Assembly: GCA_013372975.1 (NCBI GenBank) | Contig: JABXIS010000021.1 | Span: 1-64,000 of the forward strand | From: Alphaproteobacteria bacterium | GTDB lineage: Bacteria; Pseudomonadota; Alphaproteobacteria; Sphingomonadales; Kordiimonadaceae | Direction: 5' to 3' | Length of the DNA: 64,000 nt | In this document: one piece after another, positions 11,996-35,885 of the stretch | How positions within the stretch are numbered: position 1 is the stretch's first letter | How the letters are laid out: the number at the start of each line of letters is the position of its first letter | Notes under the pieces: model-generated | Databases searched by the model: none | What the model was told of the DNA's origin: nothing | Seen by the model: the letters and a program-made list of their open reading frames with translations, nothing else | Position numbers and translations under genes: made by a program

Positions 11996-12778
11996 TTAAT
12001 CTTCCAGGATGCCAAGGCGCAGGGCGCTGGGTAAAATTTCCCGCGTGGATGTGACTTCGAGGGCATCTTTAAGTTCCTTGATATGGAACGACACGGTGGG
12101 CGCACTAACCCCCATTCGGGCGGCAATCTGCCCATTGGTCATTCCCGCATTCAACTGTTGCAGAACCTCTAGCGGGCGCCCCTTGATACCAACGCTTGCA
12201 GCTCGTTCGCGCCGCTCCAGAGGTTGGTAGAATGTATGCATATAAAGACTGGCCAGATGTACTTCGTCTCCGTGCATTTTCATGATCTCTTTGAGGCGGT
12301 CGATCCGCTCTTCGCAGTGCAACGTTACCTCACCATGGCCGCGGCCGAAGGGGTGCCTCAGCGGGAAACCGACAGCGGAGAATATGCCATAGTGCTCTGC
12401 GCGCTGCAGAATAAAGTCGAATCCCTTGAAGTTTGGATCTTTGGGGTCAAGAAGTTCTCTCGCCATATAAAGAGGCTGCATAGAGCGCTGTTCGATCTGA
12501 TGGATCATTGGATCCACTTTTTCGTATCGGCGGCTTAGATATTCTTCCACGCCCTCTTTGGGCATGCTGGTGATCCAGGTGCGCCCTGCAAGGGCAACGC
12601 GAACGTGGGTATCCTTGCCATTCTCTGTTTCAACGGCGGAATTGATCGGTGCATAGCTATAGCCATAGGTAGCACATTTGAAGCCACGTGCTTCTACGAA
12701 ATCCAGGAAAAGTTGCCATACATCATGGCTTGTCTGGGCCGACTCTAGCTGGCCTATAAGGGTGCTAACGCTATCCAC
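11996..12778 (-). CDS. LuxR-family regulator with autoinducer-binding-like domain (solo)
   Basis: A 260-residue protein with an N-terminal domain (about 15-175) resembling the acyl-homoserine-lactone-binding domain and a C-terminal LuxR helix-turn-helix (about 195-255, NGQIAARMGVSAPTVSFHIK). The EYLSRRYEKVDPMIHQ segment keeps the Tyr and Asp-Pro of the ligand pocket, but the two Trp residues usual in TraR/LuxR (before this segment and after it in PLYMAREL) are replaced. No luxI-type synthase is in the window. It is therefore a solo that may bind another ligand. The secreted EEP-fold and MipA-like genes lie immediately downstream and are plausible targets. Confidence 0.87.
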   Translation of the reverse strand: MDSVSTLIGQLESAQTSHDVWQLFLDFVEARGFKCATYGYSYAPINSAVETENGKDTHVRVALAGRTWITSMPKEGVEEYLSRRYEKVDPMIHQIEQRSMQPLYMARELLDPKDPNFKGFDFILQRAEHYGIFSAVGFPLRHPFGRGHGEVTLHCEERIDRLKEIMKMHGDEVHLASLYMHTFYQPLERRERAASVGIKGRPLEVLQQLNAGMTNGQIAARMGVSAPTVSFHIKELKDALEVTSTREILPSALRLGILED

Positions 12779-12914
12779 AAAACAGCCTCCGGTGGTGATC
12801 GGTATGTATCTATTTGTTTATATTGATTTTAGTTCAATTGTCCCCGAAGGCGAATATAGACAAACTTGGTTGGCTTGTCGCCTGCCGATTGCATTTTTTA
12901 CAGCCCCAAATATA

Positions 12915-12945
12915 AAAGCCCGCCCTTGGGTGAAGGGCGGGCTTT
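12915..12945 (-). terminator. Strong rho-independent terminator (13-base-pair stem)
   Basis: AAAGCCCGCCCTT (12915-12927) and AAGGGCGGGCTTT (12933-12945) are perfectly complementary around a five-base loop. On the minus strand the stem is followed by TTATATTT. It forms the 3' end of the structured region behind the small gene at 13040. Confidence 0.88.
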
Positions 12946-13017
12946 GACCGGGATTGGGTATGTCCCGGTCACGGACGGGATGGTTGGGTGCCGGGTGCTG
13001 AGAGAAGTCCCGTCCGT
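12915..13017 (-). ncRNA. Candidate structured RNA: three consecutive hairpins ending in a terminator
   Basis: Read on the minus strand, three perfect stems follow each other without gaps. The first pairs ACGGACGGGA with TCCCGTCCGT (10 base pairs, positions 13008-13017 and 12971-12980). The second pairs TGACCGGGA with TCCCGGTCA (9 base pairs, 12963-12971 and 12945-12953, with one base shared with the first stem). The third is the 13-base-pair terminator. The block starts 22 bases after the stop of the small gene at 13040, so it may be its structured 3' untranslated region or a small RNA released from it. I recognise no known RNA family. Confidence 0.45.
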
Positions 13018-13039
13018 TAACTCAAAACTATATTCTGTC

Positions 13040-13264
13040 CTAGTGGATGACTGCTTTCTCCGGCCGGAAGCTATCTGCGGCAATGTTGGTCAGATGCTCA
13101 TGGATGCCAATCCAGAGATCGAATCCCTCATCGTCGCCCATGGCTTTCATTTTCGCCAAGGCTTCATCTGCATAGTCGAGCGCTTTGGGGCCCAAATTTT
13201 TGAGAAGGTTCTCGGCAACCAGGCCGAAGTAGAAATTTGGGTCGAATGGCAGCGACTGTTGCAT
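13040..13264 (-). CDS. Small conserved-looking hypothetical protein (74 residues)
   Basis: A 74-residue soluble, acidic, helical protein: FGLVAENLLKNLG, then a region with DYADEALAKM and GDDEGFDLWIGIHEHL. An AGAGGAG ribosome site stands eight bases before the ATG at 13264, and a strong terminator follows, so it is a real gene. There is no signal peptide or membrane segment. I do not recognise the family and give no function. It is a single-gene unit upstream of an unusual run of three hairpins. Confidence 0.75.
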   Translation of the reverse strand: MQQSLPFDPNFYFGLVAENLLKNLGPKALDYADEALAKMKAMGDDEGFDLWIGIHEHLTNIAADSFRPEKAVIH

Positions 13265-13480
13265 TTGATGAACTCCTCTAAGCAGCGTTTAAACTCGCCT
13301 CCTTATCAGCAACTGTCGTGCCAACTTTTAAGGGTGAGGATTCTCAAGGGGTTGCAGCGGCGCATCGCGGTTGAACTACGCGTAGAGGGTGTGAGAGGTA
13401 AAATGCTGCCGGGTCAGGCTTGCCGCTTTTACCCACCGGAGGGAAAGGCTTGCCGTGTCAGGTTGGGACAATGTCGGTGT
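13265..13480. other. Intergenic region between bioD and the small gene
   Basis: About 216 bases that must hold the promoter of the small gene (minus strand) and the 3' end of bioFD. AGGCTTGCCG occurs twice (13416-13425 and 13446-13455), 30 bases apart. No gene or clear terminator is visible. Confidence 0.4.
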
Positions 13481-14170
13481 TTAGCTGGCGGCCAGCACTG
13501 ATGTCAGGTCCGGCGCATTTTGCCACGGATTCTGGCCCGTAATGCGGGGCACCGTCAGGACACGAAGGCCGGTCAATTCCGTCAGCTCCTCGGCTGTAGC
13601 CAGCAGGTCCGGGTTGGCATACAGCGTGCCGGGAGCGCTTTCACTCAAGATAATCGCGCGGGTTTTCAAGCCACGTGCCGTCATCGCTTCCAGCGTGGCA
13701 ATGGTGTGGGATAACGTGCCCAGATAGCTACCCGTGACCAGGATGCTTCCGAGGCCAAGGTCTGCGATCCAATCCGCCACCAGCTTGCCTTCGGTGAGCG
13801 GTACAAAAGACCCGCCGACACCTTCAATCAGGGTGAACTGGTCAGTGGCAAGTGCCCTCCGGCAATGATCCAGAATAGCACCATAGGAAAGCGTGCGGCC
13901 TTCCTTTGCTGCTGCCATGGTTGGGGCAAGCGGTGCCTTGAAGCGGAAAGGGGAAAGCGTATTCCAGGTTTCGGCCGTGGCTGGCATGCCAAGGGCCTCG
14001 GCAATCACAGCCGTGTCGCTGCCGTCCATGGTTTGGTCGGTCACGCCACTGATCACGGGCTTCAGTGCCAGAATCTGCAGTCCCTTTTTTCTAGCCTGAT
14101 GGCAAAGGGTGGCTGTTATCAGCGTTTTGCCGATCTCGGTGCCGGTGGAGGTGATGAAAAGGCCGCTCAT
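13481..14170 (-). CDS. bioD: Dethiobiotin synthetase
   Basis: A 229-residue ATP-dependent carboxylase-ligase. The P-loop is TSTGTEIGKTL (residues 7-17), the diaminopelargonate-binding region is LKPVISGV, and EGVGGSFVPLTEG is the conserved second loop. It closes the ureido ring of dethiobiotin from 7,8-diaminopelargonate, CO2 and ATP. Its start overlaps the bioF stop by four bases, so bioF-bioD are translationally coupled, divergent from bioB-bioA. Confidence 0.95.
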   Translation of the reverse strand: MSGLFITSTGTEIGKTLITATLCHQARKKGLQILALKPVISGVTDQTMDGSDTAVIAEALGMPATAETWNTLSPFRFKAPLAPTMAAAKEGRTLSYGAILDHCRRALATDQFTLIEGVGGSFVPLTEGKLVADWIADLGLGSILVTGSYLGTLSHTIATLEAMTARGLKTRAIILSESAPGTLYANPDLLATAEELTELTGLRVLTVPRITGQNPWQNAPDLTSVLAAS

Positions 14171-35646: not shown

Positions 35647-35742
35647 CCGGGAGAGCCGGCGGACATTCCGCTCGCCAACCCGGTCAGGTCCGAAAGGAAG
35701 CAGCCGTAACGAGTTAGGCATGGGTCGTTTTGGCCCTCCCAC
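35647..35742 (+). ncRNA. ffs: Signal recognition particle 4.5S RNA
   Basis: The conserved apical segment GGTCAGGTCCGAAAGGAAGC, followed by AGCC, is present from about 35682. The terminal helix forms from GGGAGAGCC (35649-35657) and GGCCCTCCC (35732-35740), with one mismatch, enclosing a single long hairpin of about 96 bases as in bacterial SRP RNA. The apical tetraloop reads GAAA where many bacteria have GGAA. Ffh binds this domain to target membrane proteins. The position just upstream of dnaX is common in alphaproteobacteria. Exact ends are estimated. Confidence 0.93.
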
Positions 35743-35885
35743 CCTACCAAAACCATGAAATGGTGAATGAATACGCCGGAAACGCGTGTTCATTTTTTTT
35801 ATCCGCGAAAATCGATTTCTTGGCCTTTCCCGCGCTGGCCAGACCTGCTAGTCATGGTCCTTCAGTTTGAGAGGGATGAGGCTTT

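Follow-up and report, generated by a model that had tools for sequence, protein, structure and literature searches.

Three ACCC-loop hairpins behind a small-protein gene: a likely new small RNA family in Kordiimonas and its relatives

What is the role of three consecutive hairpins behind a small bacterial gene, where the last of them would suffice as a plain gene end? The question is raised by the minus strand at positions 12915–13017 of the window, i.e., the whole 64,000-nucleotide stretch of alphaproteobacterial DNA analyzed here. An earlier note, made from the letters of this DNA, described the block as three back-to-back perfect hairpins ending with a terminator and suggested either that the gene at 13040 gives rise to a small RNA at its 3′ end or that the block is a protein-binding, leader-like element. 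Since the hairpin shape and the loops are kept in nearly all close relatives examined, and the locus looks like a single sigma-54 unit, the three hairpins most likely form a new family of regulatory small RNAs in the Kordiimonas family, as judged by comparative sequence analysis.

The element was delimited by sequence reading, its predicted fold, a scan for hairpin clusters, and a covariance-model match. On the minus strand, hairpin 1 (12971–13017) consists of a 10-bp stem (13017–13008 paired with 12980–12971) closing the 27-nt loop CUUCUCUCAGCACCCGGCACCCAACCA, which harbors two ACCC motifs; hairpin 2 (12946–12970) has an 8-bp stem (12970–12963 paired with 12953–12946) and the 9-nt loop CAUACCCAA; hairpin 3 (12915–12945) combines a 13-bp stem (12945–12933 paired with 12927–12915) with the 5-nt loop CACCC. 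The last hairpin is terminator-like by its sequence and is followed by TATATTT, in line with the terminator expected at the end of the block. The assignments are based on the fold and on pair changes, together with the conserved loop in the case of hairpin 1 and with loop comparison in the case of hairpins 2 and 3. Of the stem lengths proposed in the earlier note (10, 9, and 13 bp), the first and the last hold, but the second stem reaches 9 bp only by borrowing one base from each neighbor, so the set of stems able to form together is 10 + 8 + 13 bp, with no spacer. Likewise, the hairpins are perfect and stand end to end, but the first one is not tight, since it closes a long conserved loop.

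The minimum free energy of the segment 12900–13040 was −63.6 kcal/mol (z = −5.57), and none of 200 shuffled sequences folded as well. A scan for hairpins with perfect pairing (stem of at least 8 bp, loop of 3–30 nt, one shared base permitted between neighbors) returned 48 hairpins in the window, and the only cluster of at least two was the three-hairpin element itself. In the control set of 30 first-order Markov sequences of 64 kb each, 856 hairpins formed four clusters of at least two and no cluster of three. A covariance model built from seven members, including the one from the window, matched positions 12908–13021 with 119.2 bits, a score to be read with that membership in mind.

The distribution of the element was followed in a sample of 29 genomes of Kordiimonas and relatives, referred to here as the family. 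Exactly one copy was found by the covariance model (E ≤ 1e-3) in 27 of them. In a 28th genome (G042), a diverged copy is situated at the expected place (26.4 bits, E = 3.9e-5 in 24.7 kb), and the remaining one (G022) has kept the upstream gene with no element detectable behind it by the model. Among 296 genomes of the order, 31 matches were obtained, of which 27 belong to the family; the other four scored 30.1–33.4 bits, and three of these were inspected, the fourth being G035. A class-level sample of 385 genomes, searched with stricter filters, yielded a single match, that in the own genome of the window, with no other family member among the matches. One of the weak matches (33.4 bits; minus strand, approximately 1501–1598 of locus L063) comes from genome G190 of another family of the order and appears to be an RNA of its own, with three hairpins and C-rich loops; a search of G190 gave no gene for the 74-aa protein described below.

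The alignment of all 27 copies (26 distinct rows) was used for a pair test, in which 96.5% of 751 cells were paired, 28 of the 30 modelled pairs had changed on both sides, including all 11 modelled pairs of hairpin 1, and the covariation score was 0.600 vs. 0.211 in shuffles, although these values lean towards the structure because the alignment was fitted to the model built from seven members. None of 500 shuffles reached any of the five measures, and alignments slid as a control were paired in 34.5–53.4% of cells. When 21 sequences were aligned by plain MAFFT, helix 2 alone was recovered, and six of its eight pairs showed two-sided changes in one sequence or more. The reason is that the lengths of stems and loops differ among the species. 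Single-sequence folds of the region downstream of the gene, which need no alignment, gave hairpins with nearly constant loops in the family and agree with the structure. There are two kinds of exception: the aligned stretch contains just two hairpins in both genomes of genus g4 (L061 and L062), and K. sediminis (L060) has a different hairpin 2. In one of the g4 genomes (G041, locus L145), an additional hairpin with a GACCC loop was seen beyond the second one, as though hairpin 3 had changed place or arisen anew. The search for the three stems in relatives, proposed in the earlier note as a check, thus found them kept through compensatory change, and the covariation in all three stems together with the loops kept across 27 genomes bears out the idea that the block is more than a plain gene end.

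In 22 of the 27 copies, loop 1 carries UCAGCACCC, and in most a second ACCC follows. The usual sequence of loop 2 is AUACCCAA or ACACCCAA, and that of loop 3 is UACCC or CACCC. At least one ACCC is present in loop 1 of 26 copies and two in 23, while loops 2 and 3 contain the motif in 24 and 23 copies, respectively (in L061 and L062, the second hairpin was counted as loop 3); all three loops have it in 19 copies, and four have lost it from loop 3. Conservation expressed as bits per column amounted to 1.29, 1.64, and 1.37 in loops 1, 2, and 3. The lowest values belong to stem 1 (0.66–0.70), although it is nearly always paired; stems 2 (1.50–1.54) and 3 (1.27–1.28) are about at the level of the loops. 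Variable letters in stem 1 combined with constant letters in the loops make a pattern of exposed recognition sites, which is clearest for hairpin 1.

In all 26 readable cases, the element directly follows, on its 3′ side, the same gene (13040–13264 in the window, minus strand) encoding a protein of 74 aa, and stem 1 begins 5–27 nt past the gene. The 27th copy was left out of the upstream counts because its contig starts at the element: in this genome (G008), the locus is split by contig ends, so that one contig ends with the gene and the first 40 nt of the element (L024) and another opens with the full element (L044). Relatives of the 74-aa gene were found in 34 of the 40 genomes searched and in all 29 family genomes (24 from the first search plus G040–G044). 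The protein of the window had no Pfam or NCBIfam match at E ≤ 1, the DUF1127 domain included in the Pfam search; a weak likeness to DUF6961, below the cut-off, was displayed by two of its distant relatives. Its predicted structure comprises three helices (mean pLDDT 87.1), with no PDB match at E ≤ 0.001.

Upstream of the 74-aa gene, there are genes reading as bioF and bioD, these names being a reading of the open reading frames; the product of the bioD-like gene (13481–14170, minus strand) matches Pfam AAA_26. A bioD-like gene was present near the 74-aa gene at 17 of the 35 loci surveyed, including two from other families (L028 and L029), so the link to biotin genes appears to be old but not constant. 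On the other side of the element, there is a LuxR-type regulator with an autoinducer-binding domain according to Pfam (11996–12778, minus strand). This next gene on the same strand begins approximately 136 nt beyond the element and stands beside it at 8 of 35 loci, most of them viewed with 1.5-kb flanks. With the block closed by a terminator-like hairpin and such a neighbor seen at a minority of the loci, the leader-like role considered in the earlier note finds no footing. The other candidate role in that note, a small RNA derived from the 3′ end of the 74-aa gene, gains strong support from the comparison, given the conserved stems and the same gene upstream at every readable locus.

Promoters served by sigma-54 are recognized by a −24/−12 site with the consensus TGGCACG-N4-TTGCW. 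Before the 74-aa gene, the sequence TGGCACGACAGTTGCT (13308–13323, minus strand) agrees with all 12 fixed positions of this consensus. At least 10 of the 12 positions are matched at all 26 loci, at least 11 at 23, and all 12 at 15. In the same 110 nt before 410 predicted genes of the own genome, at least 10 positions were matched in eight cases, at least 11 in four, and 12 in none, and over 65 nt, 3 of 412 genes reached 10 of 12; this null is raised, since the sample came in part from contigs chosen for their sigma-54 sites or activators. Outside the family, a sigma-54-like site with 10–11 of 12 positions (the best in 450 nt) was found at five of the six loci bearing the gene (L027–L031, not L026). 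Hence, the gene and its promoter look older than the RNA.

Two further upstream sequences may serve as activator sites: the palindrome-like GGCAAGCCTTTCC (13442–13454, minus strand), with a pattern derived from the loci themselves present at 21 of 26 of them, and CCCGGCAGCATTTTACC (13397–13413, minus strand), with CCCGGCA upstream at 19 of 26 loci; both counts stand without a null. The motif GGCAAGSYTTNCC, which may resemble flagellar FlbD sites, occurs at eight sites in the own genome (two for the reversed control). Only the one belonging to the 74-aa unit has a sigma-54-like site (at least 10 positions) within the following 400 nt, so GGCAAGSYTTNCC does not identify a regulon; at another (L089), a sigma-54-like site precedes the motif by 59 nt and falls within a reading frame. 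A slightly different sigma-54 pattern, TGGCAYRNNNNTTGCW, occurs nine times in the whole own genome (once for the reversed control), including positions upstream of genes that read as flagellin, flgK-like, and polysaccharide-like genes. The own genome has 12 matches to the sigma-54 activator domain, eight of them strong, although this family also matches all 14 control genomes, and it encodes Hfq.

Does the element belong to an RNA family already described? No Rfam family reached its cut-off in the element or in the loci of 20 relatives (matches listed to E ≤ 0.05), where the sub-threshold matches included sX13 with 33.5 bits at L055 (cut-off 50) and HgcG with 27.3 bits at L052 (cut-off 77). 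Elsewhere in the window, the bacterial small SRP RNA (RF00169, 55.4 bits) was found at 35648–35744 on the plus strand. The nearest likeness in Rfam is sX13 of Xanthomonas (RF02232), whose score in the window, 28.8 bits, falls short of its gathering score of 50. sX13 is reported to repress mRNAs with G-rich motifs through three apical C-rich loops and not to need Hfq (PMC3771888). The element too has three stable stems with apical C-rich loops, and its way of working is likely to be similar. At the same time, the loops of sX13 are CCCC or CCCCC, whereas those of the element contain ACCC or UCAGCACCC, and sX13 is placed at the polA locus by the same paper (PMC3771888), whereas the element is behind the 74-aa gene. 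Like the element, the alphaproteobacterial RNA ar14 (RF02344) comprises three hairpins, and its model line is C-rich in the last loop; its 22.9 bits in the window are below the gathering score of 58.8.

Other parallels concern the arrangement of the locus. In the CIN1 locus of Rhodobacter and other alphaproteobacteria, a gene for the 71-aa protein CcaF1 is followed by the CcsR small RNAs and a terminator, the promoter is of the RpoHI/HII type, and RNase E is reported to cut the precursor (PMC10253847). The loci have in common a small-protein gene directly before small-RNA-like hairpins (here at 26 of 26 loci) and an alternative sigma factor. They differ in that the 74-aa protein lacks DUF1127, the promoter looks like a sigma-54 rather than an RpoHI/HII one, and one three-hairpin RNA is present here vs. 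four there; CCUCCUCCC, presumably the CcsR-type loop motif, is absent from the loops of the element. Small RNAs from the 3′ ends of sigma-54-driven mRNAs are represented by enterobacterial GlnZ, derived from the 3′ end of glnA and excised with Hfq and RNase E assisting (PMC9731577), and by CJnc230/FlmE of Campylobacter, which comes from the 3′ end of flgE, is processed from an RpoN-dependent mRNA, and is positioned behind the same gene in relatives (PMC11187230). GlnZ and the element share an origin at the 3′ end of a sigma-54 mRNA, putative in the present case, though the genes are unrelated; FlmE is similarly placed behind the same gene in relatives, though its host gene, for the flagellar hook, is unrelated as well. 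One trait of such 3′-end-derived RNAs, a conserved structure that follows the stop codon and carries its own terminator-like hairpin, is found here. Overall, the element resembles GlnZ, FlmE, CcaF1–CcsR, and sX13 by anatomy and, on the evidence of these comparisons, is a member of no family tested.

If the ACCC loops act by base pairing, complementary sites could be expected in mRNAs. The gene set examined for this comprised 412 predicted genes from the window and 377.4 kb of the own genome (20 stretches, about one tenth of the genome). Across these genes, the loops did not prefer start regions: the start minus mid-gene energies for loops 1–3 were +0.20, −0.28, and −0.10 kcal/mol, and the shuffled-loop controls (15 per loop) gave −0.25, −0.10, and −0.07 kcal/mol with standard deviations of 0.41–0.44, so a general anti-Shine–Dalgarno action was rejected. 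GGGTG was not clearly enriched at the starts (11/412 vs. 40/2060 mid-gene stretches) and GGGTA was (11/412 vs. 14/2060), in a test biased against GGGU sites because the simple rule for calling starts favors GGAG-type sites. The complement of UCAGCACCC occurs at 53 sites in the own genome (11 for the reversed-pattern control), one of them being the other strand of the element itself; of the 30 sites inspected, four are near a possible start, and none was convincing. Pairings seen in single genomes involved, for example, a start that is presumably chromate-transporter-like, a presumably pspA-like start, and a leader assumed to be pseB-like.

Two specific candidates were also turned down. Self-pairing with the host gene would have to use GGGTG, GGGTA, or TGGGT, which occur in 7 of 26 loci at shifting places, with no conserved site. 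The flagellin leader was considered as a conserved target, and GGTTGGGT, the complement of loops 1 and 2, was present in 2 of 29 leaders (those of the own genome and of G006); the comparison covered 30 of the many flagellin loci, one from each genome and an additional one from the own genome, with one start not found. Most of these leaders (L115–L143) have in common a sigma-54-like site, an inverted repeat that is short and GC-rich, and, before the start codon, the near-constant stretch AAACGTCAT...AGGAGAGGTTAA; together, these may be a conserved leader regulator.

The same observations bear on the alternatives to a trans-acting RNA. The simplest of them, a plain terminator accompanied by chance hairpins, accounts for the terminator-like sequence of the last hairpin, but it is refuted by the conservation in 27 genomes and by the compensatory pair changes in all three stems with their conserved loops, which leaves it practically no probability. 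More can be said for hairpins that act in cis, shielding the 74-aa mRNA from exonucleases and ending it. Strong 3′ hairpins can protect mRNAs, and the attachment of the element to its gene at every readable locus, together with the terminator-like final hairpin, suits such a function. Still, protection needs stems, yet in this element the loop letters are kept, far more so than those of stem 1, and two further hairpins should add nothing to termination; the former argument is weakened by stems 2 and 3, which are conserved about as well as the loops. On balance, a purely cis-acting role is regarded as improbable, without being negligible.

Other alternatives accept an action in trans and change the partner. 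The ACCC loops might be copies of one binding site with which the RNA titrates an RNA-binding protein, in the way CrcZ titrates Hfq/Crc. The same short motif offered in up to four unpaired places and held there by differing, compensating stems speaks for such a sponge, as does the absence of a conserved mRNA target in the limited searches. Against it, loop 1 keeps UCAGCACCC in most copies, longer than a short protein site needs, and we know of no bacterial protein with a preference for ACCC loops; a protein sponge is accordingly considered unlikely. Titration of another small RNA with GGGU seeds, for which the repeated loop motifs would be suited, is more doubtful still. It has an alphaproteobacterial precedent in CrfA, described as a sponge for SisA-D in Caulobacter (PMC12559287), but no partner small RNA is known here, and the inspection of 30 of the 53 complementary sites was for gene starts alone.

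The reading which fits best, and which we hold with somewhat better than even confidence, is that sigma-54 drives an mRNA from the 3′ end of which a small RNA arises, one that works by means of its ACCC loops. Sigma-54 with an activator would start, at the site 13323–13308, one short mRNA composed of a leader, the 74-aa gene, and a three-hairpin 3′ untranslated region with its own terminator. A stable small RNA of approximately 100 nt would arise by an RNase cut in the 5–27-nt linker past the stop codon or consist of the 3′ end left uncut, and its loops would present UCAGCACCC and up to four ACCC motifs. Like other small RNAs with C-rich loops, these could pair with GGGU-type sites on particular mRNAs, so one sigma-54 signal would deliver both a small protein and a regulatory RNA. 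Transcription from this site, release of the RNA, and pairing in trans are what we infer from the conserved features of the locus.

A variation on this reading, to which only a small probability is assigned, has the three-helix 74-aa protein and the ACCC-loop RNA acting on the same thing, as a two-product device to which the RNA was added later in the Kordiimonas family. The protein might bind or mature the RNA, as CcaF1 does in relation to CcsR, albeit being an unrelated protein; or else the RNA might soak up an RNA-binding protein that reads the ACCC loops. In either version, the protein and the promoter site, which are found in other families of the order, would be the older part, and the RNA would have been gained at the 3′ end.

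A brief literature search found no description of a small RNA from Kordiimonas or its family. Returning to the favored reading of an RNA that pairs with mRNAs, the element exists in a single copy with clear bounds, 27 natural variants, and a promoter prediction, so its role and targets are directly testable. The locus adds a case of a sigma-54 mRNA on which a small protein and a small RNA are apparently combined, and the RNA seems to have been acquired at the 3′ end of a gene that is older.
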